64,000 nucleotides of DNA. It comes from Tomocerus qinae (Eukaryota; Arthropoda; Collembola; Entomobryomorpha; Tomoceridae). Location: positions 74,896,001 through 74,960,000 of the forward strand of contig CM034546.1 of assembly GCA_020055645.1 (NCBI GenBank). Direction: 5' to 3'. The notes beneath the pieces are model-generated. The model had not been told where the DNA came from, made no database searches, and saw only the letters and a program-made list of their open reading frames with translations. Positions within the stretch are counted from its first letter, which is position 1. Every line of letters starts with the position of its first letter. Position numbers and translations under genes: made by a program. Below, one piece after another: positions 2,378 through 62,700 of this stretch.

Positions 2378-2385
2378 GATTAGAT

Positions 2386-4529: not shown

Positions 4530-4860
4530 CAATTTAGCCACTGGTTAACAAAGAATTTTAAACGGTCGGCAATTATAGCTAGCCATTTAAGCTAATTCAG
4601 CTACTGATTATAAATAATTTCAACCGGCCGGCCATTTTAGCCAGCCATTTAAGCTAATTTAGTCACTGGTTTAAAAGTAATTTCAACCGGCCGGCCATTT
4701 AAATTAATTTAATCACTGGTTAAAAAATAATTTCAACCGGCCGGCGATTTTAGCTAGTCGTTTAAGCCAATTTAGCTACTGGTTAAAAAATAATTTCAAC
4801 CGGCCGGTCATTTTAGCTACTCATTTAAGCCAATTTAGTCACTGGTTAAAAAATATTTTT
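4530..4860. repeat. About 63-bp minisatellite (CCGGCCGG units) in P4HA intron 1
   Basis: Five or so degenerate units, each with CAACCGGCCGGC followed by a TTTAAGC..AATTTAG..CACTGGTTAA segment; unit starts near 4621, 4684, 4734 and 4798. The same array is in the right arm at 57540-57920. Related GGCTGGCTAAAATGG sequence forms parts of elements at 21504-22310. Confidence 0.8.
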
Positions 4861-6799
4861 GGATTCTGGGGCGATTTTTTTCCTTACAAGGATTGCATTT
4901 TTCTTCAAGAGTATTACTATCAACATACACTAATGCGTGTAATGTGTAATACAAGATGATGGAGTGGAGGAGGAAGCCTACGACGCCGGAGTACGTACTC
5001 CATACTCCAGCCTCCGCTTCGGGGCTTTATGTTCATGCGCCCTATGAGAAATTAGTGAAATACTTGAGGAAGGTCAATCTGAAATCGGCACTTTTAATTT
5101 TTCAAATTCGACACCTGGATAAGTAGTCAACAAGTCCGTTAACTGGAAAGCCTTAATGAAATAAGTTTGTGGAATTAAGTTTAGCAATTCCAAATGAGGT
5201 CATAATGAATGCATTTCTTACACCGAACAATTAAAATACTTGGATGCCAACTGAAAAAAAATTGAGACTATTTTGTGCACAAAACGAAAAGCGCATTGAA
5301 GCTAAATGTTCCATAAGGACGCAATGTTTCGTAAAATGATTATCAAATTTACTTAGGACCCATAATTACAAACATCCCCAAGCTTTAAATAGCAATGTTT
5401 AAACTAAACTCATTTTAAGGACTTACTTTTTGGCCAGTTGAACTCGACTCTCCAGATTTTCAACGTAGTCAGTCAATGCTTTGAGAATCTCTTGCTCAAA
5501 TGACACTAGTTTCTGTATATTATAAAGTGATGTGTAGTAATCCTCCGAAGACAAGGAGAAAGGAAGGAAATGGCAGGAAAGAAACAGAATGTAACAGCAT
5601 TGCACAAACTGATTCATGTTATCTAAGGGCTTTGGCAATGAGTAAAGGTATAAGGTTGGTTGCACTATTTAGTCACAATAAATTGGTAACTTTTGCTAAT
5701 TGTAAACCTGTTTAGGTTGGTAACCATTTTTTCTATTTATGTAAATAAAAAATCCATGAACAGCTCCAAATACAGAATCATAAAATAATTAATTCTCATC
5801 GCAAAAAAGTATGCAATACTATTTTAACGTTTCATTGTGAAAATTAATTTTGAAGTCCTTAAAACAATTAAACACCTAGCCGGTTTTTAAATGCATATAA
5901 TTGCAATTTTACATTTTCAGCACAGCACACCGTTAACTACAAAATATTTCCAGTTTATAATGACCACTTTACACTCAAAACAATTTATTATTGAACTTTA
6001 TATTAAATGTATTACGAAATGTCAATTAAATTTAACTAGAACATACTACTTTCAACGAAATGTATTTTGCGTGCGTTTTATTATGAGGTAAACAAAATCC
6101 TCGAGTGCAGAATGTAAACCGATAGGATGCAATATCTAAACTGAGTCGGTTAAACCAGTTAACAGGGAAAAGACTACATCTGTGCAGCCTAAAATCTCAT
6201 TTATAGGCTACACACCCGACGAGACTCGATCCTTCACAAATCCCTTGCACGTCTTGCACGTGGACAGACTTGAAGCAAGCCCCCTCAATGAAGTCACAAT
6301 GTAATGACCAGGCATAAGAATTTGCAAGATTTCTGTTTATGAAAGAACGGAGGTTTGAGTGCAGCTGCAGAATCAGGTAACATGTTCCCAATGCAGACTT
6401 TTTTATCTCTATAAGCTGTATGTATGGTATTCGCTTATCTCAACTTTGCAATAAATAACGGCACAATAGGGTCAGGGTACATATCCGACTGCCGAATGGT
6501 AGATAGCCGACCGCTGAAACGTACATATGCGAAAGCCGAATGGTATTTAACCGAATCCGAAAGCTCCCGAAAGGGTATATATCCGAATCCGAAGGGGTAC
6601 CTAGCCGAATCCGAACAAAAATGCTTTCGGAAATCCTGGATACATATCTGAATCTTAACCTACCCTACCAAAAATGTAGAGGTGGGCATAATTTCCCGAC
6701 CAGGTTCAAGTGTCCAAAAAACCAATATTTTGCATTTCATCAATAAAATCATAAAATCTGAAACTATTCAACAAATTTTTTAAAAGTTTGGGCATATGC

Positions 6800-22999: not shown

Positions 23000-23354
23000 A
23001 TCCCATCTAGCCCATTACCGATATCCTAACAATTGTCACCATCCAATCTTAATAATTGTCACCATCCAATCCTAATAATTGTCACCATCCAGCCCATTAC
23101 CAATATCCTAATAATTGTCACCATCCAATTCTAATAATTATCACCGTCCAGCCCGTTACCGATATCCTAATAATTGTCACCATCCAGCCCATTACCGACA
23201 TCCGAGCGAGTAATTGTACTATTGTACCCATTCCTTCCAGCCCAATTCTAAACATCCGGATGGAATGGTGGATGTGATGGAAATATGGAATGTTGAGTAA
23301 AATGGTTGGGATAGTTACATCTATGCTTGGCAGTATGGACAATGGTGAGTCAGA

Positions 23355-26300
23355 CCTTCGAATAAATTCGAGTACTTTCGAATAAATTCGAGTACCTTCG
23401 AATAAATTGAGTACCTTCGAATAAATTCGAGTACCTTCGAAAAAATTCGAGTACCTTCGAATAAATTCGAGTACCTTCGAATAAATTGAGTACCTTCGAA
23501 TAAATTCGAGTACCTTCGAAAAAATTCGAGTACCTTCGAATAAATTCGAGTACCTTCGAATAAATTCGAGTACCTACGAATAAATTGAGTACCTTCGAAT
23601 AAATTCGAGTACCTACGAATAAATTCGAGTACCTACGAATATATTGAGTACTTTCGAATAAATTGAGTACCTTCGAATTAATACGAGTACCTTCGAATAA
23701 ATTGAGTACCTTCGAATAAATTGAGTACCTTCGAATAAATTGAGTACCTTCGAATAAATTGAGTACCTTCTAATAAATTCGAGTACCTTCGAATAAATTT
23801 GAGTACCTTCGAATAAATTCGAGTTCCTTCTAATAAATTCGAGTACCTTCGAATAAATTCGAGTACCTTCGAATAAATTCGAGTACCTTCTCATAAATTC
23901 GAGTACCTTCGAATAAATTCGAGTACCTTCTAATAAATTCGAGTACCTCCGAATAAATTGAGTACCTTTGAATAAATTGAGTACCTTCGAATAAATTGAG
24001 TACCTTCGAATAAATTGAGTACCTTCGAATAAATTGAGTACCTTCGAATAAATTGAGTACCTTCTAATAAATTCGAGTACCTTCGAATAAATTGAGTACC
24101 TTCGAATAAATTGAGTACCTTCGAATAAATTGAGTACCTTCTAATAAATTCGAGTACCTTCGAATAAATTTGAGTACCTTCGAATAAATTCGAGTACCTT
24201 CTAATAAATTCGAGTACCTTCGAATAAATTGAGTACCTTCGAATAAATTGAGTTTCTTCGAATAAATTCGAGTACCTACGAATAAATTGACTACCTTCGA
24301 ATAAATTCGAGTATCTTCGAATAAATTCGAGTATCTTCGAATAAATTCGAGTACCTTCGAATAAATTCGAGTACCTTCGAATAAATTCGAGTACCTTCGA
24401 ATAAATTGAGTACCTTCGAATAAATTCGAGTACCTTCGAAAAAATTCGAGTACCTTCGAATAAATTCGAGTACCTTCGAATAAATTCGAGTACCTTCGAA
24501 TAAATTGAGTACCTTCGAATAAATTCGAGTACCTTCGAAAAAATTCGAATACCTTCGAATAAATTCGAGTACCTTCGAATAAATTCGAGTACCTTCGAAT
24601 AAATTCGAGTACTTTCGAATAAATTCGAGTACCTTCGAATAAATTGAGTACCTTCGAATAAATTCGAATACCTTCGAAAAAATTCGAGTACCTTCGAATA
24701 AATTCGAGTACCTTCGAGTAAATTTGAGTTTCTTCGAATAAATTGAGTACCTTCGAATAAATTCGATTACCTTCGGATAAATTCGACCACCTTCGAAAAA
24801 ATTGAGTACCTTCTAATAAATTCGAGTACCTTCGAATAAATTCGAGTACCTTCGAATAAATTGAGTACCTTCGAATAAATTCGAGTACCTTCGAAAAAAT
24901 TCGAGTACCTTCGAATAAATTCGAGTACCTTCGAATAAATTCGAGTACCTACGAATAAATTGAGTACCTTCGAATAAATTCGAGTACCTTCGAAAAAATT
25001 CGAGTACCTTCGAATAAATTCGAGTACCTTCGAATAAATTGAGTACCTTCGAATAAATTCGAGTACCTTCGAAAAAATTCGAGTACCTTCGAATAAATTC
25101 GAGTACCTTCGAATAAATTCGAGTACCTTCGAATAAATTCGAGTACCTTCGAATAAATTGAGTACCTTCGAATAAATTCGAGTACCTTCGAAAAAATTCG
25201 AATACCTTCGAATAAATTCGAGTACCTTCGAATAAATTCGAGTACCTTCGAATAAATTCGAGTACTTTCGAATAAATTCGAGTACCTTCGAATAAATTTG
25301 AGTACCTTCGAATAAATTCGAGTACCTTCTAATAAATTCGAGTACCTTCGAATAAATTGAGTACCTTCGAATAAATTGAGTTTCTTCGAATAAATTCGAG
25401 TACCTACGAATAAATTGACTACCTTCGAATAAATTCGAGTATCTTCGAATAAATTCGAGTATCTTCGAATAAATTCGAGTACCTTCGAATAAATTCGAGT
25501 ACCTTCGAATAAATTCGAGTACCTTCGAATAAATTGAGTACCTTCGAATAAATTGAGTATCTTCGAATAAATTCGAGTATCTTCGAATAAATTCGAGTAC
25601 CTTCGAATAAATTCGAGTACCTTCGAATAAATTCGAGTACCTTCGAATAAATTGAGTACCTTCGAATAAATTGAGTACCTTCGAATAAATTGAGTACCTT
25701 CGAATAAATTCGAGTACCTTCGAATAAATTCGAGTACCTTCGAATAAATTCGAGTACCTTCGAATAAATTCGAGTACCTTCGAATAAATTCAAGTACCTT
25801 CGAATAAATTGAGTACCTTCTAATAAATTCGAGTACCTTCTAATAAATTCGAGTACCTTCGAATAAATTGAGTACCTTCGAATAAATTCGAGTACCTTCG
25901 AAAAAATTCGAATACCTTCGAATAAATTCGAGTACCTTCGAATAAATTCGAGTACCTTCGAATAAATTCGAGTACTTTCGAATAAATTCGAGTACCTTCG
26001 AATAAATTCGAGTACCTTCGAATAAATTCGAATACCTTCGAATAAATTCGAGTACCTTCGAATAAATTCGAGTACCTTCGAATAAATTCGAGTACTTTCG
26101 AATAAATTCGAGTACCTTCGAATAAATTGAGTACCTTCGAATAAATTCGAGTACCTTCGAATAAATTCGAGTACTTTCGAATAAATTCGAGTACCTTCGA
26201 ATAAATTGAGTACCTTCGAATAAATTCGAGTACCTTCGAAAAAATTCGAGTACCTTCGAATAAATTCGAGTACCTTCGAATAAATTGAGTACCTTCGAAT

Positions 26301-29300
26301 AAATTCGAGTACCTTCGAATAAATTCGAGTACTTTCGAATAAATTCGAGTACCTTCGAATAAATTGAGTACCTTCGAATAAATTCGAGTACCTTCGAATA
26401 AATTCGAGTACTTTCGAATAAATTCGAGTACCTTCGAATAAATTGAGTACCTTCGAATAAATTCGAGTACCTTCGAAAAAATTCGAGTACCTTCGAATAA
26501 ATTCGAGTACCTTCGAATAAATTGAGTACCTTCGAATAAATTCGAGTACCTTCGAAAAAATTCGAGTACCTTCGAATAAATTCGAGTACCTTCGAATAAA
26601 TTCGAGTACCTTCGAATAAATTCGAGTACCTACGAATAAATTGAGTACCTTCGAATAAATTCGAGTACCTACGAATAAATTCGAGTACCTACGAATATAT
26701 TGAGTACTTTCGAATAAATTGAGTACCTTCGAATTAATACGAGTACCTTCGAATAAATTGAGTACCTTCGAATAAATTGAGTACCTTCGAATAAATTGAG
26801 TACCTTCGAATAAATTGAGTACCTTCTAATAAATTCGAGTACCTTCGAATAAATTTGAGTACCTTCGAATAAATTCGAGTTCCTTCTAATAAATTCGAGT
26901 ATCTTCGAATAAATTCGAGTACCTTCGAATAAATTCGAGTACTTTCGAATAAATTCGAGTATCTTCGAATAAATTCGAGTACCTTCGAATAAATTCGAGT
27001 ACCTTCACGAATAAATTCGAGTACCTTCGAATAAATTGAGTACCTTCGAATAAATTGAGTACCTTCAAATAAATTGAGTACCTTCTCATAAATTCGAGTA
27101 CCTTCGAATAAATTCGAGTACCTTCTAATAAATTCGAGTACCTCCGAATAAATTGAGTACCTTTGAATAAATTGAGTACCTTCGAATAAATTGAGTACCT
27201 TCGAATAAATTGAGTACCTTCGAATAAATTGAGTACCTTCGAATAAATTGAGTACCTTCTAATAAATTCGAGTACCTTCGAATAAATTTGAGTACCTTCG
27301 AATAAATTCGAGTACCTTCTAATAAATTCGAGTACCTTCGAATAAATTGAGTACCTTCGAATAAATTGAGTTTCTTCGAATAAATTCGAGTACCTACGAA
27401 TAAATTGACTACCTTCGAATAAATTCGAGTATCTTCGAATAAATTCGAGTATCTTCGAATAAATTCGAGTACCTTCGAATAAATTCGAGTACCTTCGAAT
27501 AAATTCGAGTACCTTCGAATAAATTGAGTACCTTCGAATAAATTGAGTACCTTCGAATAAATTGAGTACCTTCGAATAAATTCGAGTACCTTCGAATAAA
27601 TTCGAGTACCTTCGAATAAATTCGAGTACCTTCGAATAAATTCGAGTACCTTCGAATAAATTCAAGTACCTTCGAATAAATTGAGTACCTTCTAATAAAT
27701 TCGAGTACCTTCGAATAAATTCGAGTGCCTACGAATAAATTGAGTACCTTCTAATAAATTCGAGTACTTTCGAATAAATTCGGGTACCTATGAATAAATT
27801 GAGTACCTTCGAATAAATTCGAGTACCTTCGAATAAATTCGAGTACCTTCGAATAAATTCGAGTACCTTCGAATAAATTAAGTACCTTCGAATAAATTGA
27901 GTACCTTCGAATAAATTCGAGTACCTTCGAATAAATTCGAGTACCTTCTAATAAATTCGAGTACCTTCGAATAAATTCGAGTACCTTCGAATAAATTCGA
28001 GTACCTTCAAATAAATTGAGTACCTTCGAATAAATTGAGTACCTTCGAATAAATTCGAGTACCTTCGAATAAATTCGAGTACCTTCGAATAAATTCGAGT
28101 ACCTTCGAATAAATTCGAGTACCTTCGAATAAATTCGACCACCTTCGAAAAAATTCGGGTACCTTCGAATAAATTCGAGTACCTTCGAATAAATTCGAGT
28201 ACCTTCGAATAAATTCGAGTACCTTCTAATAAATTCGAGTACCTTCTAATAAATTCGAGTACCTTCTAATAAATTCGAGTACCTTCGAATAAATTCGAGT
28301 ACCTTCGAATAAATTCGAGTACCATCGAATAAATTGAGTACCTTCGAATAAATTGAGTACCTTCTAATAAATTCGAGTACCTTCGGATAAATTCGAGTAC
28401 CTTCGAATAAATTCGAGTACCTTCGAATAAATTCTAGTACCTAAGAATAAATTGAGTACCTTCGAATAAATTGAGTACCTTCGAATAAATTGAGTACCTT
28501 CGAATAAATTGAGTACCTTCGAATAAATTGAGTACCTTCGAATAAATTCGAGTACCTTCGAATAAATTCGAGTACCTTCGAATAAATTCGAGTACCTTCG
28601 AATAAATTCGACCACCTTCGAAAAAATTCGGGTACCTTCGAATAAATTCGAGTACCTTCGAATAAATTCGAGTACCTTCGAATAAATTCGAGTACCTTCT
28701 AATAAATTCGAGTACCTTCGAATAAATTCGAGTACCTTCGAATAAATTCGAGTACCATCGAATAAATTGAGTACCTTCGAATAAATTGAGTACCTTCTAA
28801 TAAATTCGAGTACCTTCGAATAAATTCGAGTACCTTCGAATAAATTCTAGTACCTAAGAATAAATTGAGTACCTTCGAATAAATTGAGTACCTTCGAATA
28901 AATTGAGTACCTTCGAATAAATTGAGTACCTTCGAATAAATTCGAGTACCTTAGAATAAATTCGAGTACCTTAGAATAAATTCGAGTACCTTCGAATAAA
29001 TTCGAGTACCTTCGAATAAATTCGAGTACCTTCGAATAAATTTGAGTACCTTCGAATAAATTCGACCACCTTCGAAAAAATTCGGGTACCTTCGAATAAA
29101 TTCGAGTACCTTCGAATAAATTCGAGTACCTTCGAATAAATTCGAGTACCTTCTAATAAATTCGAGTACCTTCAAAAAAATTCGAGTACCTTCGAATAAA
29201 TTCGAGTACCTTCGAATAAATTGAGTACCTTCGAATAAATTGAGTACCTTCTAATAAATTCGAGTACCTTCGAATAAATTCGAGTACCTTCGAATAAATT

Positions 29301-32300
29301 CTAGTACCTAAGAATAAATTGAGTACCGTCGAATAAATTGAGTACCTTCGAATAAATTGAGTACCTTCGAATAAATTGAGTACCTTCGAATAAATTCGAG
29401 TACCTTAGAATAAATTCGAGTACCTTCGAATAAATTCGAGTACCTTCGAATAAATTGAGTACCTTCAAATAAATTGAGTACCTTCTCATAAATTCGAGTA
29501 CCTTCGAATAAATTCGAGTACCTTCTAATAAATTCGAGTACCTCCGAATAAATTGAGTACCTTTGAATAAATTGAGTACCTTCGAATAAATTGAGTACCT
29601 TCGAATAAATTGAGTACCTTCGAATAAATTGAGTACCTTCGAATAAATTGAGTACCTTCTAATAAATTCGAGTACCTTCGAATAAATTTGAGTACCTTCG
29701 AATAAATTCGAGTACCTTCTAATAAATTCGAGTACCTTCGAATAAATTGAGTACCTTCGAATAAATTGAGTTTCTTCGAATAAATTCGAGTACCTACGAA
29801 TAAATTGACTACCTTCGAATAAATTCGAGTATCTTCGAATAAATTCGAGTATCTTCGAATAAATTCGAGTACCTTCGAATAAATTCGAGTACCTTCGAAT
29901 AAATTCGAGTACCTTCGAATAAATTGAGTACCTTCGAATAAATTGAGTACCTTCGAATAAATTGAGTACCTTCGAATAAATTGAGTACCTTCGAATAAAT
30001 TCGAGTACCTTAGAATAAATTCGAGTACCTTAGAATAAATTCGAGTACCTTCGAATAAATTCGAGTACCTTCGAATAAATTCGAGTACCTTCGAATAAAT
30101 TCGAGTACCTTCGAATAAATTCGACCACCTTCGAAAAAATTCGGGTACCTTCGAATAAATTCGAGTACCTTCGAATAAATTCGAGTACCTTCGAATAAAT
30201 TCGAGTACCTTCTAATAAATTCGAGTACCTTCTAATAAATTCGAGTACCTTCTAATAAATTCGAGTACCTTCTAATAAATTCGAGTACCTTCGAATAAAT
30301 TCGAGTACCTTCGAATAAATTCGAGTACCATCGAATAAATTGAGTACCTTCGAATAAATTGAGTACCTTCTAATAAATTCGAGTACCTTCGGATAAATTC
30401 GAGTACCTTCGAATAAATTCGAGTACCTTCGAATAAATTCTAGTACCTTCGAATAAATTGAGTACCTTCGAATAAATTGAGTACCTTCGAATAAATTGAG
30501 TACCTTCGAATAAATTCGAGTACCTTCGAATAAATTCGAGTACCTTCGAATAAATTCGAGTACCTTCGAATAAATTGAGTACCTTCTAATAAATTCGAGT
30601 ACCTTCGAATAAATTCGAGTGCCTACGAATAAATTGAGTACCTACGAATAAATTGAGTACCTTCGAATAAATTCGAGTACCTATGAATAAATTGAGTACC
30701 TTCGAATAAATTCGAGTACCTTCGAATAAATTCGAGTACCTTCGAATAAATTCGAGTACCTTCGAATAAATTGAGTACCTTCGAATAAATTGAGTACCTT
30801 CGAATAAATTCGAGTACCTTCGAATAAATTCGAGTACCTTCTAATAAATTCGAGTACCTTCGAATAAATTCGAGTACCTTCGAATAAATTGAGTACCTTC
30901 GAATAAATTGAGTACCTTCGAATAAATTCGAGTACCTTCGAATAAATTCGAGTACCTTCGAATAAATTCGAGTACCTTCGAATAAATTCGAGTACCTTCG
31001 AATAAATTCGAGTACCTTCGAATAAATTCAAGTACCTTCTAATAAATTCGAGTACCTTCGAATAAATTCGAGTACCTTCGAATAAATTCGAGTACCATCG
31101 AATAAATTGAGTACCTTCGAATAAATTGAGTACCTTCTAATAAATTCGAGTACCTTCGAATAAATTCGAGTACCTTCGAATAAATTCGAGTACCTTCGAA
31201 TAAATTCTAGTACCTAAGAATAAATTGAGTACCTTCGAATAAATTGAGTACCTTCGAATAAATTGAGTACCTTCGAATAAATTGAGTACCTTCGAATAAA
31301 TTCGAGTACCTTAGAATAAATTCGAGTACCTTAGAATAAATTCGAGTACCTTCGAATAAATTCGAGTACCTTCGAATAAATTCGAGTACCTTCGAATAAA
31401 TTCGAGTACCTTCGAATAAATTCGACCACCTTCGAAAAAATTCGGGTACCTTCGAATAAATTCGAGTACCTTCGAATAAATTCGAGTACCTTCGAATAAA
31501 TTCGAGTACCTTCTAATAAATTCGAGTACCTTCGAATAAATTCGAGTACCTTCGAATAAATTCGAGTACCTTCGAATAAATTGAGTACCTTCGAATAAAT
31601 TGAGTACCTTCTAATAAATTCGAGTACCTTCGAATAAATTCGAGTACCTTCGAATAAATTCGAGTACCTTCGAATAAATTCTAGTACCTAAGAATAAATT
31701 GAGTACCTTCGAATAAATTGAGTACCTTCGAATAAATTGAGTACCTTCGAATAAATTGAGTACCTTCGAATAAATTCGAGTACCTTCGAATAAATTCGAG
31801 TACCTTCGAATAAATTCGAGTACCTTCGAATAAATTCGAGTACCTTCGAATAAATTCGAGTACCTTCGAATAAATTCGAGTACCTTCGAATAAATTCGAG
31901 TACCTTCGAATAAATTGAGTACCTTCGAATAAATTCGAGTACCTTCGAATAAATTCGAGTACCTTCGAATAAATTCGAGTACCTTCGAATAAATTCGAGT
32001 ACCTTCGAATAAATTCGAGTACCTTCGAATAAATTCGAGTACCTACGAATAAATTGAGTACCTTCGAAAAAATTCGAGTACCTTCGAATAAATTCGAGTA
32101 CCTTCGAATAAATTCGAGTACCTTCGAATAAATTCGAGTTTCTTCGAATAAATTGAGTACCTTCGAATAAATTGAGTACCTTCGGATAAATTCGACCACC
32201 TTCGAAAAAATTCGGGTACCTTCGAATAAATTCGAGTACCTTTTGAATAAATTCGAGTACCTTCGAATAAATTCGAGTACCTTCGAATAAATTGAGTACC

Positions 32301-32970
32301 TTCGAATAAATTGAGTACCTTCGAATAAATTCGAGTACCTTCGAATAAATTCGAGTACCTTCGAATAAATTCGACCACCTTGGAAAAAATTCGGGTACCT
32401 TCGAATAAATTCGAGTTTCTTTGAATAAATTGAGTACCTTCGAATAAATTGAGTACCTTCGGATAAATTCGACCACCTTCGAAAAAATTCGGGTACCTTC
32501 GAATAAATTCGAGTACCTTCGAATAAATTCGAGTACCTTCGAATAAATTCGAGTACCTTCGAATAAATTCGAGTACCTTCGAATAAATTCGAGTACCTTC
32601 GAATAAATTCGAGTACCTTCGAATAAATTCGAGTACCTTCGAATAAATTCGAGTACCTTCGAATAAATTCGAGTACCTTCGAATAAATTCGAGTACCTTC
32701 GAATAAATTCGAGTACCTTCGAATAAATTCGAGTACCTTCGAATAAATTCGAGTACCTTCGAATAAATTCGAGTACCTTCGAATAAATTCGAGTACCTTC
32801 GAATAAATTCGAGTACCTTCGAATAAATTCGAGTACTTTCGAATAAATTCGAGTACCTTCGAATAAATTCGACCACCTTGGAAAAAATTCGGGTACCTTC
32901 GAATAAATTCGAGTATCTTCGAATAAATTCGAGTACCTTCGAATAAATTCGAGTACCTTCTAATAAATTC
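23355..32970. repeat. 9.6-kb satellite block, 20/19-bp monomer
   Basis: Uninterrupted head-to-tail array, roughly 480 units of GAGTACCTTCGAATAAATTC, mixed with a 19-bp variant that lacks one base (AAATTGAG for AAATTCGAG). Point variants (TTCTAATAA, CTACGAATAA, TTCGAAAAA, CACCTTCGAAAAAATTCGGG) recur in ordered blocks: the segment near 27060-27520 repeats near 29460-29920, and the CGACCACCTTCGAAAAAATT marker recurs at 28138, 28617, 29067, 30125, 31428, 32191 and 32470. That is a higher-order repeat. No unit is interrupted by other DNA. Confidence 0.97.
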
Positions 32971-33425
32971 GAGTTCTATGAATACATTCGAGTTCTATGA
33001 ATACATTCGAATACTACGAATACATTCGAGTACTACGAATACATTCGAGTACTACGAATACATTCGAGTACTACGAATACATTCGAGTACTACGAATACA
33101 TTCGAGTACTACGAATACATTCGAGTACTACGAATACATTCGAGTACTACGAATACATTCTAGTACGACGGATACATTCGAGTACTACGAATACATTCGA
33201 GTACTACGAATACATTCGAGTACTACGAATACATGATAGTTCTACGAATACATTCGAGTACTACGAATACATGATAGTTCTACGAATACATTCGAGTACT
33301 ACGAATACACTCGAGTTCTACGAATACATGCTAGTTCTACGAATACGTTTGAGTTCTACGAATACATTCGAGTTTTACGAATACATTCGACTTATTTCGA
33401 ATAGATTTAAGGTCCTGCGAATAAA
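32971..33425. repeat. Related 19-bp array at the satellite edge
   Basis: About 22 units of CTACGAATACATTCGAGTA, clearly derived from the neighbouring 20-mer (CGAATA-ATTCGAGTA core). It becomes degenerate towards 33425, as expected at an array margin. Confidence 0.92.
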
Positions 33426-33439
33426 TTCGAGTTCTAAAA

Positions 33440-37599: not shown

Positions 37600-38330
37600 A
37601 TTTTGAAGCTTTCTGCAACTTTGACACCGTCATTTTTATTATCTTTGTGATATGCATGACAAATCGAGGTAGAAATAGAAAAGACATTTGCATGAATTTC
37701 GGCTAGGTATGAGTTTTAAAAAAGTGGATCAGACCAAAAATGCTCTACGGTTATTCAAAAATGATTACAAATATAGTAAAAGAAATAAATAAGAGACACA
37801 GAGGATAATAATACTGATGAAATTAATGCAAACATCAATGATATGAGAGAATGTGATGTTCAATCAATAGGAAAAGTGTATTACTTAATTTACACTTAAA
37901 AGTTTAAAGCACTACTGTGAGTATTTTTAGACTAGATTATGTTACTACTACCTAAAGTTGATTTGTGGCATGTTTATGGTAACCGTTCTGTTTTAATCTT
38001 TTGTGTAATTCTGTGCAGAAAAAAATAAACGCAGACGAATAAACAAAATAACATGCATTAATCGTTACTAGAATATTTGCCTTAGAATAGCTAAATGACA
38101 CCGTAGTGCACATAACGTTGCAGTTTCTGCTTTTCTAGATAACAGTGTACCATGGATAATAATAAATAATTGATATCATGTTCTCAGGATTATATCATCT
38201 CGTATGACTAGTAGCAGGACGTCAAGGAAACTTTATTGGCACGAATGCTGAGATTAGAGAATGGGCGCGACAGAAAAGGGGAAATTGGGAATTACCATAA
38301 ATGATAATTTGTGGAAGAAATGTTGAAATG
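37600..38330 (+). pseudogene. Decayed duplicate of the NB-ARC gene tail and its 3' flank
   Basis: Matches 49450-50560 in the same orientation. It contains pieces of the second membrane segment and the following helix (AATCGAGGTAGAAA, CATTTGCATGAATTTCGGCT, AAAATGCTCTACGGTTATTC), the C-terminal codons (GATGAAATTAATGCAAAC), the 3' UTR with AATAAA, and the downstream GTAGCAGGACGTCAAGGAAA block. Large internal segments present in the parent are missing and the frame is broken, so no product is expected. It lies tail to tail with the CARD-F-box gene. Confidence 0.8.
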
Positions 38331-40138
38331 TTGTGGAAATCATTTGAGTTAACTGAGAGTTCTGTAGCGCCACTCATCTCCCCGCCTAAGCACAATTTTG
38401 TGTTAGTTTCTGAATTCAATGGCGAATTAGATAACCATGGAGTAATGTCAAAACTTTTAACGCTTCTCCAATCATCGTCAACTAAATATAAGTCTGACGT
38501 CTCAAGCTTGGTAATGTACTTTTTTTGATTCCGAAAGAAATAATTCAATTCCTCTATCGGCCATGGATTTTTGCTATCTTGCTCACAAAATGTAAAGTGG
38601 TTGAAGGGAAAAGTTCTATTTTCTTCGTTCCGTTCAGGAAAGACTTGTGTAAACTGGAATCGAAAGTAATTTTTGAGCGAGGTATCAAAACATTAAGACC
38701 AACTGATGACCATTCTTTGGAAACTAAACGAGATGTTTTGATTTCTTCAAAATTCAAATACTGAAGTATACACTTGATGACCTAAATTTGCAATAAATAA
38801 ATACAAATTTTGTTATTGACAGGCAATGACTAAACAAGAAATAAATATTTACATGACGTACCAAACCAATTGTGTGTTAGGGGGAGAGCACAGCTACTAC
38901 TATTGATTAGTAGAGCTATGCTACCGCTCAAGCCGCGAGGAGCTTACTTGCAGTGACTCCCGGAACAACTTTACTAAGTGTACAGACTTACACGAAGAGA
39001 CTTAGTACTGAAGAGTACTGAACCATGAGACGGAACGACTCAACACTGTCCCGCAACTCGATCTGGTGGGCAGTCAGAGAGGGACCGGAACATGCAAGCC
39101 GACCGCCAGTGACCACAGACAAATCACTTACAGCAGTCTACTTCAATCCACCTTATCACCTCATGTGCATCCCATTGTCCAGACTTGTGCTAGGTAGAAC
39201 TCGTAGCACGTATACAGACCAACAGAACAATCCATACACTACAGACAGGGCATTGATAGATAATCATATTGTCACCAAGATAGGCAAATCAATGCTAATA
39301 ACGAATATACGGCAATGACAGCTTCTCCCAGCTCCAGACTACTACCTTATAGACCTGAGGCGCTCCAGAGATTCGAACTCCAGACCTCAGCCTGAGAAGC
39401 GGCTGTTTAGACCACTAGACAGACCTGTACGCCCTACCAAACCAATTAGCAACGGATTCTTAATTATTGCATTAACGTATTCCTGAGTGTCTTCAACATC
39501 ATCATCATCACAATTGACATCTGTGCCATTTTCTTTTCCGTTGATATTTTCGGCTTCAAGCTGTCCCTTCTTAAAATTTCAAATAATGTTTAAGTTCGTA
39601 GAAAAAGATATTGAAAAATTGCCGCATATATTAGTAGCCATTATCACTTATATTCTAAAGAAACTCCAGGATTATTACTTACAAACTTTAACATCTCTTC
39701 TTCAGTGGCGAGACCCTTATTGAATAAATTGAACATAATTTTCGGCAAAAACAGATTCTCATCTCCAACTGGAACTTCTGGAGTATTCATGCCTTGAATG
39801 CATCTCATGGATAATAATAATCTTGCAGCGTTGTCATCACATTCCATTGTATTCACCAAATCAAGTATTGCAATCTTTTTATCTTTGAGTGCCGTTGTGG
39901 TTTTCTAAAATATAGAGATAAATATACACACCAACTGCCAAGCCATTACTCAATACAATAATGGTAAATACACAGTAAATAATAATAAGAAATCATTATA
40001 CGATTGTAAATTTGAAAACCGAAGTAAGCAACTTTTACTTACAATTTGATGTTTTTCATTTTCAGTGATCCATCCTTTTTCACAGCTGAGATTTAAAGGC
40101 ACAATCAGTAACTCCTCTTCCTTACATGCCATGGTCAA
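38222..40138 (-). CDS. CARD-like/F-box protein (spliced, exon 4 frameshifted)
   Basis: Four exons with consistent phase-0 junctions: 40043-40132 (ATG 40132; an in-frame ATG also at 40138), 39683-39904, 39438-39569 and 38781-38222. Exons 1-2 (104 residues) have CARD-like helical spacing: GWITENEKHQI, then KIAILDLVNTM, then AARLLLSMRCIQG. Exon 3 is an acidic linker (DDDDVED). NPLLIGL at its end joins VIKCILQYLNFEEI, KTSRLVSKEW in exon 4, which fits the F-box consensus that binds Skp1 in SCF ubiquitin ligases. At 38568-38572 (a five-base A run on the coding strand) the frame is lost to a stop at 38554; the other frame (NPWPIEELNYFFRN onward) continues to 38222. One missing base would explain this. 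The substrate-binding C-terminus looks truncated at the edge of the duplicated block. CARD assignment is by pattern only. Confidence 0.6.
38872..39434 (-). mobile_element. tRNA-headed SINE-like insertion at a splice donor
   Basis: Flanked by the 13-bp direct repeat TACCAAACCAATT (38859-38871 and 39435-39447). On the minus strand the 5' end carries pol III-type internal promoter motifs: GTGGTCTAAACAGC (A-box-like) and GAGTTCGAATCTC (B box), near 39370-39420. No poly-A tail is visible, so the class is tentative. The insertion lies at the exon 3/intron 3 boundary of the CARD-F-box gene: the target duplication contains the donor GT. Confidence 0.7.
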
Positions 40139-46892: not shown

Positions 46893-49800
46893 ATGAAAAT
46901 GGAATCAGAAGCGATTTTATCTAATATAGTGTACTTAGCTGAACACCTCACTAATATCTCGTCTGTATTGACACGGCTGGAACGGGAAGATATAATTTCC
47001 AGGCATGAACGCGAAAAAATTGTGAGTACTAAGTAAAAACAGGCATTATGTTATAAATAAATATGTTATTATAATAATATGGTAAATGACGCACTACTAA
47101 CTATGAAGTCGTATATGACGGGAACTTTAAGGAATTCAGCCGCACTAAACTCAAAGAAAGGAATTTTTTAAATACTAAAAATTTTACTTAATAATACTTT
47201 ACCATTACTAATCAATGGAACCCATGCCCATGCTATAATTTAAAGCTCTTTTAAATTAGTATTTAGGTCAACTGAATCTAAATTGTAGTAGATACAATAT
47301 ATTTAGCAGGTATATTATATAAAAATATATTGGTAGTAAGTAGTAGGTAACCGAATTTAGATGTCCATTCTATAAGACTTTGGAGTTAAAGCTCTTACCT
47401 CCTTTGGGGGTGAATGAAAAAGTTATTGTAGTACTTAAAATGCCGAAACTCATTGCGGAATTCCTCACAATACGAAGCCATTTCGGGCAATTTTAAATAC
47501 TTGCCACTGCGTTATACCTTTTTTGGATAAAAAATTAAAATTGAGATGTATATCATATAATAATAGAATATCTATCTTAAGTCAGTAGTGTGTTTAGAAA
47601 GGGCGGGTATTTTTTGTCTTCGTCTTTAACGACCGACACCATGAAAACCATTCAAGTAAATTCACTCAACTGTAGCATTTATCTTCTAATTTGCAGTTAC
47701 CATTCAATTATTATCCTCCTAATTAAAACCTCTCTTTCTACTGAGTCAATTTAAAATTTGATAAAGAAATTTTAAAAATTGTTCACGTTAAGAAACTAGA
47801 TCTTTTTCACACTGAATAATCAATAATGGTCCTTTTTTATTCGAATAGCTAGCAGATGGAGTGACCAACGACCAAAATTCTCGTCTGTTCATATTGCTTC
47901 ATAGAAAAGATTGGAATAGGATCGAAAAAGTGACTCTGAAAATTCTGGTTATAACTGGAAATAAGCATTGCGCTAACAGGCTTTTAGGAATACCTACTCG
48001 TCCTCTAGACAGTTACATCACCGCCCTAGGAGATAAATGGTGGCCAGAGGAAAAAAGGACTTCAGAAGCGTTTATTGAAAGAACAACTGGCAACGATATT
48101 CTGGTAGAAGTCTTGTATGCAAATTTGCGAATTATTACAAAGAATTATACAATTATATCGTTTGGATTGACTGTGGCGCAGATAAGTACTGGAACCAATC
48201 AGAAGATAATTTGTGGAAGCCGTTTGAACACTTGGCCATAGATCTGGAAATCAATCCAGACGCATTCAACCTCAAATGGCTTGTGAAAAAGGTTTACGAG
48301 AAACTTTCCGCATTCCAAAGTAGTTGCTTGTTAATATTTGACAACGCTACTGAATACACGAATGGACTTAAAGATGTTCTTCCAGAAACAGGGAAATACA
48401 ATTTCCACTGCATAATTACATCACGAAATCGACAATGGGGCTTTAACACTGGGCATGGGGAGATCACACAATTTCCATTAGACATATTTAGTAGCAACGA
48501 CAGCGTCAAATTACTACAGAACCATTTAACTATCCCCTTCGATGATACCGAATTAGAATCCTTAGCTAGATTGCTCGGAAATCTGCCCCTGGCTATGCAA
48601 ATTGCTTTAGCAAAATTAAATAACGACGGAATGACAATCGGAGAATATATACAAAAACTTACAACAACAGATACAATCATTGAATCGAATTTGAAAGTAG
48701 ACGACTATGAAAAGACAATTAACAAGACAATGCACATTTCTTTTGAGGTTATCAGAAAAGAGGGAGAATGTGGAAAAATCGCAATGGATATCCTTCAAGT
48801 TTTTGGTTTTCTGCGACCAGATGCTGTTGAATTGCAAACATTCGCAGATGTCTTGGCAGTCAAAATAGAAAACGTGGAAGAAGCTGTAGATTTGCTTCAA
48901 AAATTTTCGTTAGTCACAAAGAATGGAAGAATTAACAAAGAAGTCGTTGCTCCTCCCACTTGGTGTGGAATTTTCTTTTGGCGGGTGATACGGCCATTGT
49001 CGTGGTTTTGTTCAGTGTGCACGTACAGTCCAGTGATTTTTCCTTATACCCCGAAAACTGCCCTAGTGAAAACAATGGTTGAGTTTCAAATAGCAAGCAT
49101 GCATAGGCTAGTTCAACAGGTCCTGCGTTATAATTCCAAAACAGAGAGAAAATCCATTTTGAAGAAAATACTTAAAAGTAAAGCATCTACCGAAAACAAA
49201 ATAGTTCCATATGGCCATGCAGAGAAAGATAAAGACCTGGCATGCTTTTTAAGGTTTCGTAGAATTGAAATGTACTACCATCAGGGCACTGAAGGAGTTG
49301 AAGCACTTATTAATGCAGGTAAATTCGACGAAGCTATACAGTTGTCAAAGTTAAAGCAGTCGCAGAATACGCTCCATGCATTGCAAATTCTTTCTATAGT
49401 TGGTTACCTTGCTTTCATTCTCATTCTCATAGCTGTTCTCTATGATTTTAATTTTGAAGCCTTTGTCTATTCTGAGCTTTTTACAACATTGACACCGTCA
49501 TTTTTTATTTTAATCTTAGTTATATGCATAAAGAATCGAGGTAGAAACAGAAAAAGACATTTGCATGAATTTCGGCTAGCTATGAGTTTTAAAAAGGTGG
49601 GCCAGAACAAAAATGCTCTACGGTTATTCAAAAACCTTTATAAATATAACAAATATTCGGCAAATTGTGGTAGCTTTAGTTGGTGTGCTGAAAAGCTTAG
49701 ATCAGCTACAGCCACAGTGGAATTAGATTTATCTCTTTCTAGTATGCCAAACAAACTTGTCGTTTCATTTTGGATTGTGTACTTGCAGTCAGAAATAGGG

Positions 49801-50013
49801 ATAGAATTTAAAAAGATTGCCAAGAAACCGCTGGCTGTAATAAAGGAACTACAATCAATTAAAATCCGGGGAATTGAATTCTCTGGAAACGAAAATATCT
49901 TCGATTTGTTGAATAGTATTAATGTACAATGGGAACTAATTGGCACCAATGATAATAATTCTGATGAAGTTAATGCAAACGTCAATGACATAAAAGAATG
50001 TGAAGTTGTATAG
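46893..50013 (+). CDS. CARD-like/NB-ARC STAND ATPase with two membrane segments
   Basis: Exon 1, 46893-47021, and exon 2, 47849-50013, join in phase 0 and encode a CARD-like helical domain (ILSNIVYLAEHL, LTRLEREDIISRHEREKI, LFILLHRKDW, then a LKILVITGN helix). The NB-ARC part shows a P-loop-like SGRSLVCKFANYYKE, then YIVWID, Walker B CLLIFDNA, HCIITSRNRQW and NLPLAMQIA, followed by a winged-helix-type ASMHRLVQQVLR. This is the layout of APAF-1/NLR-type switches that oligomerise on nucleotide exchange. Two hydrophobic spans (about 49380-49445 and 49470-49535) predict membrane anchoring, which is unusual. Two oddities: the frame shifts by one base between 48089 and 48100, inside the P-loop, and the P-loop lysine appears as arginine (GRS). 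The remaining 630 codons are open, favouring recent damage or a consensus error. No WD40 or LRR tail is visible. Confidence 0.75.
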
Positions 50014-55680: not shown

Positions 55681-56758
55681 TATTTTTTCTTTCTATACAA
55701 GTGTTTTCATTATAATTTTACTATTAAACCCTGCGATTGAAAATTTTAATTTATAATCTTAACGATAAACCCCATACTGAGCTGCGTACATTAACTAAAG
55801 CACCATTTACAGGCTCACACCGGACAGGCCATACTGCAGATTGACTTAAAGGTAGACAAATTTACGTATAAAAGTAGTGAATAAACGTGTTATATAGTAA
55901 TATCCTTGTGCCGTTATTTATTGCAAAGTTGAGATAAGCGAATACCATACATACAGCTTATAGAGATAAAAAAGTCTGCATTGGGAACATGTTACCTGAT
56001 TCTGCAGCTGCACTCAAACCTCCGTTCTTTCATAAACAGAAATCTTGCAAATTCTTATGCCTGGTCATTACATTGTGACTTCATTGAGGGGGCTTGCTTC
56101 AAGTCTGTCCACGTGCAAGACGTGCAAGGGATTTGTGAAGGATCGAGTCTCGTCGGGTGTGTAGCATATAAATGAGATTTTGGGCTGCACAGATGTAGTC
56201 TTTTCTCTGTAAACTGGTTTAATCGACTCAGTTTAGATTTTGCATCCTATCGGTTTACATTCTACACTCGAGCATTTTGTTTACCTCGCAATAAAACGCA
56301 CGCAAAATACATTTCGTTGAAAGTAGTATGTTCTAGTTATCGAAATTTAATTGACATTTCGTAATACATTTAATATAAAGTTCAATAATAAATTATTTTG
56401 AGTGTAAAGTGGTCATTTTAAACTGGAAATATTTTGTAGGTAAAAGTGTGCTGTGCTGAAAATGTAAAATTGCAATTATATGCATTTAAAAACCGGCTAG
56501 GTGATAAATTGTTTTAAGGACTTCAAAATTAATTTTCACAATGAAACGTTAAAAAAGTATTGCATACTTTTTTGCGATGAGAATTAATTATTTTATGATT
56601 CTGTATTTGGAGCTGTTCATGGATTTTTTATTTACATAAATAGAAAAAATGGTTACCAACCTAAACTGGTTTACAATTAGCAAAAGTTACCAATTTATTG
56701 CGACTAAATAGTGCAATCAACCTTATACCTTTACTCATTGCCAAAGCCCTTAGATAAC

Positions 56759-59700
56759 ATGAATCAGTTTGTGCAATGCTGTTACATTCTGTTTCTTTCC
56801 TGCCATTTCCTTCCTTTCTCCTTGTCTTCGGAGGATTACTACACATCACTTTATAATATACAGAAACTAGTGTCATTTGAGCAAGAGATTCTCAAAGCAT
56901 TGACTGACTACGTTGAAAATCTGGAGAGTCGAGTTCAACTGGCCAAAAAGTAAGCCCTTAAAATGAGTTTAGTTTAAACATTGCTATTTAAAGCTTGGGG
57001 ATGTTTGTAATTATGGGTCCTAAGTAAATTTGATAATCATTTTACGAAACATTGCGTCCTTATGGAACATTTAGCTTCAATGCGCTTTTCGTTTTGTGCA
57101 CGAAAAAGCCTCAATCCATTTTTCGTTTTGTGCACAAAATAGTCTCAATTTTTTTTCAGTTGATATCCAAGTATTTTAATTGTTCGGTATAAGAAATGCA
57201 TTCCTTATGACCTCATTTGGAATTGCTAAACTTAATTCCACAAACTTATTTCATTAAGGCTTTCCAGTTAACGGACTTGTTGACTACTTATCCAGGTGTC
57301 GAATTTGAAAAATTAAAAGTGCCGATTTCAGATTGACCTTCCTCAAGTAGTTCACTAATTTCTAATAGGGCGCATGAACATAAAGCCCCGAAGCGGAGTC
57401 AGCGGAGGCTAGAGTATATGGAGTACGTACTCCGGCGTCGTAGGCTTCCTCCTCCACTCCATCATCTTGTATTACACATGATTACATGCATTAGTGTATG
57501 TTGATAGTAATACTCTTCATATATACTAGTTTTCGGTGACCAGCCGGCGTGTTGGATAAAATGGCTGGCTAAAATGGACTGCCGTTTGAAATATTTTTTA
57601 ACCAGTAGCTAAATTGGCCTAAATGACTAGCTTAAATGACCGGCCGGTTGAAATTATTTTTTAACCTGTAGCTAAATTGGCTTAAACGACTAGCTAAAAT
57701 CGCCGGCCGGTTGAAATTATTTTTTAACCAGTGATTAAATTAATTGTAATGACCGGCCGGTTGAAATTACTTTTAAACCAGTGACTAAATTAGCTTAAAT
57801 GGCTGGCTAAAATGGCCGGCCGGTTGAAATTATTTATAATCAGTAGCTGAATTAGCTTAAATGGCTAGCTATAATTGCCGACCGTTTAAAATTCTTTGTT
57901 AACCAGTGGCTAAATTGACTTAAATGGTTAAATTCTTACTGCTTTAATCTCATTTGCTTATTAGACTGATTATTTATACGATACCAAGTTTACTAATCTG
58001 GTTCTCTACCTCATACTTATTTGACTGCTTGTTTTATATGCTAGAAATAAAGGTGGTGTTAAAAAAAGGAAACTGTTGTTGCCAAAAAGGTTTTTCGATT
58101 TTTTTGCTTTGTTGACATTTTAATGTTGACAAAATGGAGTGAATACAAAATACAATTATTATTTCCCTCTGTGCCACAAATATTTTTACTTTCTTATTGC
58201 TTATTACCAGACGTCGGAGTTTTATTTATAAGCTTTTTTTAGACTGAACTGAGAGTAGTAATATTTCAATGTATTCCTGCTGTAAACTACATTTCCATTT
58301 ATCAGAAAGCGTTTTTGCTAAATTTATAGCCACTGCACTGCCTCCTACAAAATTACTATTGAAAATTATACTCGTTACTTATGTTTAAAAATTGGTCTTG
58401 TCGTTTTCTTGTCTTTTGAATAGATATATAAGCGATTATAAAACGAGTGTATTGCCCTCCACTGAGGACATACCTCAAAGTATGGACACTCCTTCTACCA
58501 CAAACATTCAAGAAAAACTGAAATTGGATAGTGGAGAATCCAAAAGGAGGTTGACTGAAAAAATTACCGCACATCCATTGATGACCTTTCGGCTTATTCG
58601 CAGATTTGCTCAAGACCTTCCAGACATAGAAAAGAACTTGAGAAAAGACCACGAAAAAGGTATATCACTATTATTATCATTGCATTTTTCTGCCTACCTA
58701 AGTTTATTGCAATTATGGCTATGCAACTTTAAGTCATTTTATGAAGAATCGATTTTATCCGCACCATCTTTTTTTGCAGGATTTTTGCGAATATTAGAGA
58801 AAACTCGTAAGGGCCAAGTTCTGCCAAAAACTGAAGATGTGAATGGAGCTACTGAAGCTTTGCTCAGAGTTCAAGACGCTTACGATGTGGATGTGTCAGA
58901 TGTAAGTAAAATAATTGAACTCTTGTCGGATAAATTCTGCTAATTGATTACTGTCACGTACGTTTCGCAACTCCCAGCAAATTCGCAAGTTAGGGACGTC
59001 AATTCACGTCCACGTAGGGCAATAAACAATTAGGAGTAAACAAGATCAATGCAGGATCATTTATAATAAAGGATTTAGATTCGATCCGCATCCTATAAGC
59101 ACATCGAAACAAGAATTTCATCTCACACTCAATCTCTCACTCGGGAAACGTTTTGCCTACAGGGCTTATTTGTTTATATCACTATCACTACTATAGTATA
59201 AACGTAAACTGGCTCACGTTGACACGCATCTTGAAGATAATATTGTACAGGTTTCCTAGGCTGTCTTACCAGACATTAGACATACATACATAGATAGATT
59301 GGTAAATTTATTGCTTTAACTTTTCTGTGCTTATAATATAAGAGATTATTTTTATTATATGTATAGCTTGAAGTAGAAATTAATGGCGGGAGCCTGGCTT
59401 AGCCTGGCGTTATTCTCGTTCATCAGCCGTAACATCAGTCTGCGGTAGAACGTGAATTAATTCTCTACGCTTCCACATGTTAGGGACTAAGCGCAACAAT
59501 AAACACTGTCCTAAAATATTATGCATACGGTAATAAATAAGGCGATCTTTCATAAATGCATGCATTCTAATTTCTAATGTTATAATAATATATGATTATT
59601 CAAAACAATTTATCTGATTGTATAGTTTTAAGCTCAAACAGTTGAAAATTTAAACAGTGTCACTCAAATTGAGCTAGACTGTTCAAATTTTCAGGGTACA

Positions 59701-62700
59701 ATCTACGGGTAAATACGGAGGCCGAGTTACTAAATGGGCAAAATCGGTGACACGTCCAAAGAAGAGTTCAAAAATTAAAAATAATTAAAAATCGACGCAA
59801 CCATTCGTTTCTATTCATTCTGCAGCATCGTGTAAACGCTTGTTTTCTACATAAAAGCCGTTATTGAATTCAATTCCTTATCAATTCCTGATCGGACTAA
59901 TGCATGTATTGTACGACTTCAAAACAGCTATAATATTGTAATCGTGTTGGTACGCAGGTGCAAGGAATATGTGTAACTTTTATGCTATTGATAATAATCT
60001 GTCTGTCGATGAATTTTGGTACTATGTGCAATCGCTAGAAATTTATATTTTAACGTTATTCAAGCACCTTGTGCTAGGTTTTCAGCTAGTTTATTATATT
60101 TGTCATTCACTGGGCAAGCAACGACCATTAAACTCTTTAGTTTTCCCGACAGAACTATCTAATCCAGTGTACAAAATTTATTACCTTTTTTACCATCACA
60201 GTGGTAAAAATGCAAATGGTAAATTTGGTAAATTATATTGAATAATTAGCAGAGATCCACAAAAGACACAATAAATTAAATTTTTACGCTTTATTTTCTC
60301 TAAGATATTTCAAATTAAAATCTATAATTGAATGTCTACTGAAAGTGGGGAAAAAGTCATTTAAACGACATTTATTCGCTTGGTACAACCAACTTTCATT
60401 TAATTAGAAAAAATACTGATTTAGGTAATTGAAATTGATTGTTCATTAGGTAAACAAGGACGATTTTGTCCCAATTGGTTGACTCTGACAATCGTCAGCT
60501 CTGCAAAGGTATTTTAAGTACTAGCGGCGAATTTTATTCAAATTTCCATTTCTTACCAATTATACCATTTACCACCAATTTTTAGTTGGTGGTAAATAGC
60601 ATTAAATACCATTAAAAACCCCTTACCACTGGTAAATTGTAAATGGTGTTTTGTACACTGATCTAATCTTTCAAGTGTTTGTAGTCTTCGATAATCCATT
60701 AAGTTGTAAAATTATATAAAATAGCAGTGTGCATCGATTGGTTGAAAATGGCAATTAAAACACATTTTGTTCAACATTTCTAAAAATTAGAAAAAGCTGT
60801 TTGTATGATGTATGGTGTGTAATTTTATGGTTGTTCTTCATTTTATCGCATGAATTTATGGAAAACTTGTAGTCAAATGTTATTTTATGATTTACTTCAT
60901 TGAAATTCTTTACATTTCGTACTTCATGCATATAATTTACAGTTCGGCAGTGGGAAATTCGTGAACTTTGAGACGGATTCTGGTCTGACGGCTGCCGATA
61001 TGAATTACATTGGAGTGTATTCACTGAATTCCAATATTTACACGAGGGCAATCGAATGGCTACTTGCTGCATACCAATTATCAACCAAAGAGCATCCCCA
61101 AACTATATCGACAGAAGTCGTATTCAAACAAATGCAAAAGGCCATTGCACTGGTAACTAACTTTCAACTTCTGAATACTTCCTATAAATAATCCACTGCA
61201 TTTGTCTCATTAGCATAACAAAGTGCGGAACGTGATGCCAATGAATTCCTATGTCTTTCAATCGAGTATTAATGCAAATCTGTCCAATTGGAACGTTCGC
61301 CAAAGAGTTATTGACTCCAAAAAATATAAACTCTATGAAAAACAAGATTCTGTACACGATCTCACTAATTTCGCCGCTCTTTGCCGTGGAGAAAATCTCA
61401 GAGTACGTTTTCTTATTATTACTATGAATAGTTGAATGCTACTAGGAATTCATGATTTTAATTCTTCCATGGACCGCAGTCTCCAAAATTAACTAAAGAT
61501 TTAAAATGTTGGTTGGACACGAGAGGATGGACCTTTGTTCTCGATCCCATACAAGTCGAGAAACACCACGAAGACCCACCCGTTCTGCAGTATTACAACA
61601 TTTTGTCAAATTCTGTTATTTCAAGCATACTTAATAAAACCTTTTCTCGAATGGCTCGATCGAAAGTTCAAGGGGTTGCAAAAAACTCAGAAATCATTTC
61701 TGCCGTGAGAACATCAACGACCACGTGGATTGCAGAAAAAGAGCATCTCGAGTTTGCACATCTTCCTAAACTTACCCAATTAATCACAGGAATGAATTTG
61801 CAAGGGGAGGATGCTGCAGAAGATTTACAAGTTACCAGTTATGGGATTGGGGGACACTACAATCCGCATTACGATAATATTTTTAATTCTCAAGTATGAA
61901 TTTTTCATTAGTAGCAAGTTTGAACTATTTTTATTACAAATATTAGTATGAAAATTTTAATTGTTTTTTTGAATTTTGTTTATCAAAGTTTATGGACACT
62001 ATTGAGCAAGAAGAGGTGTAAGTTTTCGAAAATATGTTTTGAAACTGTAATTGTATAATATTCTGATATCCCGCATGAAGCACCAGCATAATAATAATTA
62101 AACAATGATGATTGTGAATATTTCAGAAGAAAAGGAGACCGACTTGCATCAATTCTATACTACGTAAGACGGGTTCAATCTAAACATATCCCTTTATTTA
62201 TAATTGTATTTTTACAAATACAATATCAAGAATTTATGTTGTTAGTATAACTTAGTGATCCCAGCTAAGGGGCAAATCTAGTACTCAAGAGAAATTCAGC
62301 AGGCCACCCATTACAATAACAAAAACAATTGAGGGTCAAATGGAAGTTGCTAAACCAAAATAATAACTGTAGATCGTAGTAACCAATACAGGGAACACTT
62401 AAAGACTCTATTTTTAATAAACACCCCAAAAGTTCTCCTTAAAAATCAGAAAAATATGATTTCGGGATAATGGAAAAACGTGCAAATTCCACGAGTACAA
62501 CAACTTACGAAAAAATAATTTATGGAATAAATAGTGCTCACCCCACCAGTTCAGTTATTTAATTCCAAAAAATAGGTGTCCAAACTGGCAAAAGGAAATC
62601 AAGGGGGCAGTAAAAAGTAACACCAACTCTTCTAAAAATGCTACAAAATGTATCGATATAGCAGAACTAACTTAAATTTGAAGTTTTAAAATGCTAATTA

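Follow-up and report, generated by a model that had tools for sequence, protein, structure and literature searches.

A four-exon gene copy and its surroundings

By the window we mean the whole 64,000-nucleotide stretch of Tomocerus qinae DNA analysed here (contig CM034546.1, positions 74,896,001 to 74,960,000). It carries one copy of a gene in which a CARD-like region, an acidic linker and an F-box follow one another over four exons:

40043..40132, minus strand: exon 1, 30 codons, with the start codon, the portion of the CARD-like domain that covers helices 1-2, and a phase-0 donor, GTAAGT
39683..39904, minus strand: exon 2, 74 codons, the remainder of the CARD-like domain
39438..39569, minus strand: exon 3, 44 codons, the acidic linker and the first F-box residues; its donor, GTAGGG, is changed by an insert
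38557..38781, minus strand: exon 4, the F-box frame, 75 codons open and then a stop

Exons 1-3 have GT/AG ends, all in phase 0, bearing out on the minus strand the exons of 30, 74 and 44 codons given in a preliminary description of this DNA. The acidic linker proposed there is found in exon 3, which is indeed acidic, and the last ~34 residues of exon 2 resemble exon 1. The F-box had been placed across an exon boundary. It does start in exon 3, with exon 4 beginning at about position 8 of the PF00646 profile, and the proposed comparison of the exon 3-4 junction with F-box models gave 21.5-22.1 bits against a cut-off of 20.5 (Pfam; two slightly different cuts). The complete 223-residue product scored 18.9 bits with PF00646, below that same cut-off, and a Pfam search of it returned no match to PF00619, the CARD model. 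With exons 1-3 open, such a 223-residue product could possibly be made from the window copy. The preliminary description contained neither the large family to which this copy belongs, nor the damage that the copy has suffered, nor the further C-terminal domain of about 460 residues, which we describe below.

Elsewhere in the window, a satellite with a 20-bp unit occupies 23354-33432 in about 512 copies (93% matches) and is the reason for long spurious reading frames there. A prolyl 4-hydroxylase alpha N-terminal region lies at 58389-58943 (PF08336, 1.5e-15), and part of it is mirrored at 3754-4095. Matches to TTAGG arrays numbered 400, against 0 in the reversed control, a result in keeping with an arthropod but no more specific than that.

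The arrangement recurs as a multigene family

Searching the window's own 334-Mb genome with the 104-residue product of exons 1 and 2 returned 87 rows, 55 of which are copies of exon 2. When we paired these with F-box exons within 8 kb, the F-box exon lay downstream on the same strand in 52 of 55, at 354-3758 bp (median 777 bp); F-box exons upstream on the same strand accompanied 11 of the 55, and 4 had one within that distance on the opposite strand. The F-box exon itself gave at least 132 rows genome-wide (150 of 221 candidates scored), and among the matches listed a CARD-like exon was found upstream in 50 of 129 F-box rows and went undetected in 79. The 50 CARD-linked F-box exons, which take in the window copy, its inverted twin and the near-identical pairs on contig C36, have an open frame of at least 480 codons in 35 cases, of 300-479 codons in 5 and a shorter one in 10. 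Twenty-eight loci, 27 paralogous ones and the window copy, were analysed in detail with a script that picked exon 3 by a simple score. Eleven of them are complete four-exon genes (nine by script, L023 and L043 after exon 3 had been read by eye), and in the complete loci exons 1-3 end in phase-0 donors. L027, L029, L031 and L035 are among the intact loci. Since the order recurs in nearly every exon-2 row, 35 of the 50 linked F-box exons are long and open, and 11 of the 28 loci are complete, the succession of a CARD-like domain, an F-box and a C-terminal domain of about 460 residues is a real multigene architecture rather than a product of chance, present in about fifty copies in this genome.

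A second, divergent CARD-like query led back to loci of this set; around the F-box clusters at C1:62.1-62.8 and 63.1-63.7 Mb it matched nothing. Contig C36 (61 kb) holds the near-identical member pairs L025/L060 and L026/L056, the F-box frame of the second member being short in each pair, at 111 and 60 codons respectively; these pairs reflect recent duplication or redundancy of the assembly.

The F-box unit also occurs without a CARD-like exon, because 79 of the 129 listed rows have none detectable upstream, as would be expected if two separate genes or units merely adjoined one another by coincidence. Order and strand are nevertheless kept in 52 of 55 rows over a spacing of 354-3758 bp, the phase-0 donors run through exons 1-3 of the complete loci, and the two ends diverge together: over 12 loci the distances between CARD-like parts correlate with those between C-terminal parts (r 0.83), a value reached in 0 of 5000 permutations. 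The recurrent order and the correlated distances argue for one joint gene, as the preliminary description had it, and a chance meeting of two units is very improbable.

A clear CARD gene nearby and the CARD repertoire of the genome

For comparison with the N-terminal region, the window offers a second gene:

46893..47021, plus strand: exon 1 of the neighbouring gene, first half of a true CARD (PF00619), 43 codons, with a phase-0 donor
47849..50013, plus strand: second half of that CARD and a long frame, with a change of frame between 48079 and 48241

This is the gene 7 kb away that had been described as a CARD-like STAND gene. Its CARD stands, with 29.7 bits to PF00619 against a cut-off of 23.9; its assignment to the STAND class is that of the preliminary description, and the region 48079-50013 gave only sub-cut-off matches to AAA_35 and DUF7779 in Pfam. 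The change of reading frame at 48079-48241 is either an unrecognised intron or a frameshift.

Together with three further loci (L083, L084 and L085), this gene matches PF00619 in 4 of 4 cases, at best with 1.5e-12, and a PDB profile search with these four CARDs returned CARD8, cIAP1, NOD1, CED-3 and Apaf-1. The CARD model has 83 matches in the genome at E <=1, of which 16 exceed the cut-off. A split near profile position 38-42 recurs among the matches, and 11 second CARD halves sit in frames of 400-1020 codons. Judged by these matches, the genome holds a large CARD repertoire.

The N-terminal region is probably a CARD

Direct comparison with domain models gave little. The preliminary description had proposed checking the product of exons 1 and 2 against CARD models: 3 of 17 family members do match the Pfam CARD (best E 4.5e-4), but all fall below the gathering cut-off (20.6 bits at best against 23.9), and the window copy is not among them. 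PF00619 was not matched in 14 of the 17 members, nor in any of 5 divergent members. Rival Pfam models were equally weak: RNA_pol_Rpb1_7 matched 4 of 17 members, at best with 0.0043, and DUF7779 matched one divergent member with 6.1e-4. A helix-turn-helix reading of the N-terminus was set aside: the sole Pfam match of this kind was to TrmB, a winged helix, and came from one of the 17 members with an E value of 0.21. Among PDB profiles, the paralog alignment A1 found no CARD, and alignment A2 found a designed protein first (0.017) and CARD8 only at 0.21. AlphaFold, given exon 2 alone and no alignment, returned four helices at a confidence too low for use (pLDDT 55.4, pTM 0.34).

Comparison of profile with profile was more informative. 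Aligned by hhalign, 22 family members scored 19.7 against the four CARDs of the genome, with shuffle maxima of 16.1 and 18.7. Against eight CARDs (the same four and segments of CARD8, cIAP1, NOD1 and NLRP1) they scored 24.7, and the maximum of 200 column shuffles was 18.7. In each of four such comparisons the score exceeded 200 of 200 column shuffles, at hhalign probabilities of only 4-27%. Adding seven members known from exon 2 only lowered the scores from 19.7 to 18.5 and from 24.7 to 23.3. Single pieces did less well: for exon 1 alone 15 of 150 shuffles reached the score against CARDs, and for the middle of exon 2 alone 8 of 150 did. The gene structure points in the same direction as the profile scores, as the junction of exons 1 and 2 falls, in phase 0, in the same aligned column as the intron of the neighbouring CARD gene, L083, L084 and L085 (the exon-2 acceptors of these comparison genes were read by eye).

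The genome's CARD genes whose second exon is long (window 46893-50013 and L083-L085) thus agree with the family in where a phase-0 intron interrupts the CARD, and show a detectable profile similarity to it. They differ from it in that they are clear CARDs followed by long frames, with no F-box after the CARD in the window gene, and the CARD-like domain of the family is much more diverged than these. Taken together, the profile similarity above shuffles and the shared intron site make it probable, from sequence comparison, that the region encoded by exons 1 and 2 is a CARD. The CARD-like helical bundle of the preliminary description thus gains these two lines of support, and its Pfam matches stay below threshold.

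The likeness of exon 1 to the end of exon 2 bears on this assignment in two ways. Compared by hhalign, the two segments match with a probability of 77% and a score of 22.6, the maximum of 150 shuffles being 17.2. The architecture could therefore be real and its N-terminal helical region something other than a CARD, namely a repeated helical-hairpin domain (one unit in exon 1 and a second closing exon 2) or some other helical domain acquired by capture, perhaps serving as a general protein-binding module of the kind proposed for the helix-turn-helix (HTH) of Caenorhabditis F-box A2 proteins. The weak or absent Pfam CARD matches, the failure of exon 1 alone against shuffles and the DUF7779 match of one divergent member would all fit such a domain. 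Against this, the end of exon 2 taken singly also resembles CARD helices 1-2, with a score of 17.9 where 150 shuffles reached no more than 15.9, which is what a tandem CARD would give. True CARDs have their intron at this same site, and the score climbs from 19.7 to 24.7 once CARDs from outside the genome join the profile. We consider a non-CARD domain unlikely, though the likeliest of the alternatives weighed here. On the CARD reading, the resemblance of exon 1 to the end of exon 2 suggests that one whole CARD and then half of another may stand in succession here, with a phase-0 intron closing each.

Split F-box and C-terminal domain across the family

The F-box assignment extends beyond the window copy. 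Junction pieces of exons 3 and 4 match PF00646 in 9 of 10 members, 3 of them over the cut-off of 20.5 bits (Pfam), and exon 4 alone gives an F-box match in 7 of 17 members, at best with 0.0035; no F-box match was obtained from Pfam for L029, a full-length intact member. Genome-wide there are at least 75 F-box matches (150 of 429 candidates scored). Among those listed, 37 of 75 begin at profile position 8, and a split of the F-box at this position looks common in the genome.

The C-terminal domain is harder to place. In Pfam, 5 of 17 members match the FNIP repeat, with 0.004 as the best value, and a profile search found no PDB match at E 1. No Pfam LRR model appeared among the matches of the 17 members, and LRR-type motifs numbered 93, against a mean of 79.5 and a maximum of 100 in shuffled sequences, so that an LRR reading of the domain was not supported. 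Nor was membership in the FBXL class, as Pfam, PDB and the motif count gave no sign of LRRs after the F-box in the members analysed.

Constraint differs along the protein

Paralog comparisons place the two N-terminal modules and the C-terminal domain under different regimes. The CARD-like part has a median dN/dS of 0.31 (134 pairs of 17 paralogs), and so has the F-box part (133 pairs of 17 paralogs). In the C-terminal part the median is 0.51, from 66 pairs among 12 loci, one of which, L033, has an exon 3 that was read by eye as broken. Among the six closest pairs the C-terminal ratio reaches 0.73-0.83 in five and 0.43 in one. Pooled over six close pairs, local pN/pS is 0.25-0.66 in the CARD-like part and 0.26 in the F-box, and rises to 0.94-1.67 within residues 316-490, numbered along the L029 concatenation; pS is low, at 0.086, in the stretch that gives 1.67. 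Constraint thus acts on the CARD-like and F-box parts and only loosely on the C-terminal part; the high C-terminal ratio, obtained by simple counting, is compatible with relaxed as well as with positive selection.

The window copy is damaged

Two further features of the window bear on the state of its own copy:

38872..39434, strand unassigned: SINE-like insert of 563 bp, flanked by 13-bp target-site duplications at 38859-38871 and 39435-39447
38331..38645, minus strand: what is left of the C-terminal domain, in a different frame; homology with L045 runs out near 38331

Relative to L045, its nearest sister copy (C1:75593194), the window copy carries a 40-bp frameshifting deletion in exon 4 near 38644, and because homology to L045 stops where it does, the C-terminal domain is about 340 residues short of its normal length. 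The SINE-like insert, which may carry a tRNA-like B-box, has one diverged 103-bp relative, in L037. It starts three bases into intron 3, so the exon-3 donor now reads GTAGGG; the donor is GTACGT in L045 and mostly GTACGT or GTAAGT in the paralogs. An inverted twin of the window copy at C1:74867231 (99.9% identity, 4 gaps over 3.2 kb) also has the 75-codon exon-4 frame. Both copies are most likely pseudogenes, encoding at best a truncated CARD-like/F-box protein without the target domain.

Such a protein might still work, competing with full-length members for Skp1 or for CARD partners: exons 1-3 are uninterrupted and their splice sites usable, the F-box residues lie inside the 75 open codons of exon 4, and the CARD-like part of the window copy shows a dN/dS of 0.30-0.58 against 17 paralogs. 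These pairwise ratios, however, largely reflect the history of the paralogs. Further, the same 75-codon frame is present in the inverted twin, and a single gene here combines a frameshifting deletion, a truncation and an altered donor. A working truncated gene is therefore improbable, and we keep to the view that the copy and its twin are most likely pseudogenes.

The sister copy L045 has kept its long open F-box exon, and genome searches did not detect a CARD-like exon there; its N-terminal part may have been lost or exchanged. On a larger scale, positions 1-6466 of the window form an inverted repeat with 55906-62550, in five pieces of 94-98% identity around a satellite. Together with the inverted twin at C1:74867231, this repeat suggests nested palindromes, either real or made by the assembly.

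Discussion

F-box proteins bind Skp1 and pass targets to the SCF ligase. The order of domains, their recurrence and their unequal constraint make it probable that the genes described here form an expanded family of SCF-type substrate receptors, composed of a CARD-like domain, an acidic linker, a split F-box and a fast-evolving C-terminal domain of about 460 residues, of which the window holds a damaged copy. Two conserved N-terminal modules joined to a loosely constrained C-terminal domain are the pattern of a receptor with a changing set of targets. In such a receptor the F-box would bind Skp1/Cul1, and the C-terminal domain would select targets that change quickly. The CARD-like domain would act as a tether, binding to or polymerising with CARD proteins, many of which appear to be encoded in the genome. 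Ubiquitylation would thereby be tied to a CARD signalling complex, and a CARD partner could be removed through SCF.

Death-fold adaptors and F-box receptors both serve immunity and cell death, and the family of about fifty copies offers a concrete and testable link from CARD signalling to ubiquitin-mediated removal. Some 35 members are candidate CARD-tethered ubiquitin-ligase receptors. That these are directed at changing pathogen or selfish targets, with the CARD coupling the ligase to CARD signalling complexes, is a tentative and rather doubtful proposal. If it were true, such a diversified receptor repertoire would wire immune receptor assembly and proteolysis into one protein.

Known relatives in architecture share parts of this plan. 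In the FBXL and other F-box substrate receptors of SCF ligases, the F-box is followed by a long C-terminal domain. The family resembles them in its PF00646 matches and its long C-terminal domain, and differs in its CARD-like N-terminus and in a C-terminal domain that is not assignable to LRR. A fusion of CARD and F-box did not appear among the titles and abstract openings listed from the literature searched, a collection with few subscription articles and no preprints.

Of the known systems that we came across, the nearest is the F-box A2 family of Caenorhabditis (HTH - F-box - FTH), whose genes acquired an N-terminal HTH by capture (Almeida et al. 2025, PMC12062965). According to the main text of that paper, which contains none of the words CARD, springtail and Collembola, purifying selection predominates in the F-box and the HTH, positive selection is better evidenced in the C-terminal domain, and a role as a protein-interaction platform is proposed for the captured HTH (PMC12062965). 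As described there, the F-box A2 N-terminus is a transposase HTH held in one exon, whereas here a CARD-like region extends over two exons, and the C-terminal domain of the springtail family, unlike that of F-box A2, matched no FTH model. Both are multigene F-box families with an N-terminal helical domain, in which the N-terminal and F-box parts are constrained. On the published account of F-box A2, the springtail family thus parallels the capture of N-terminal domains by Caenorhabditis F-box genes.
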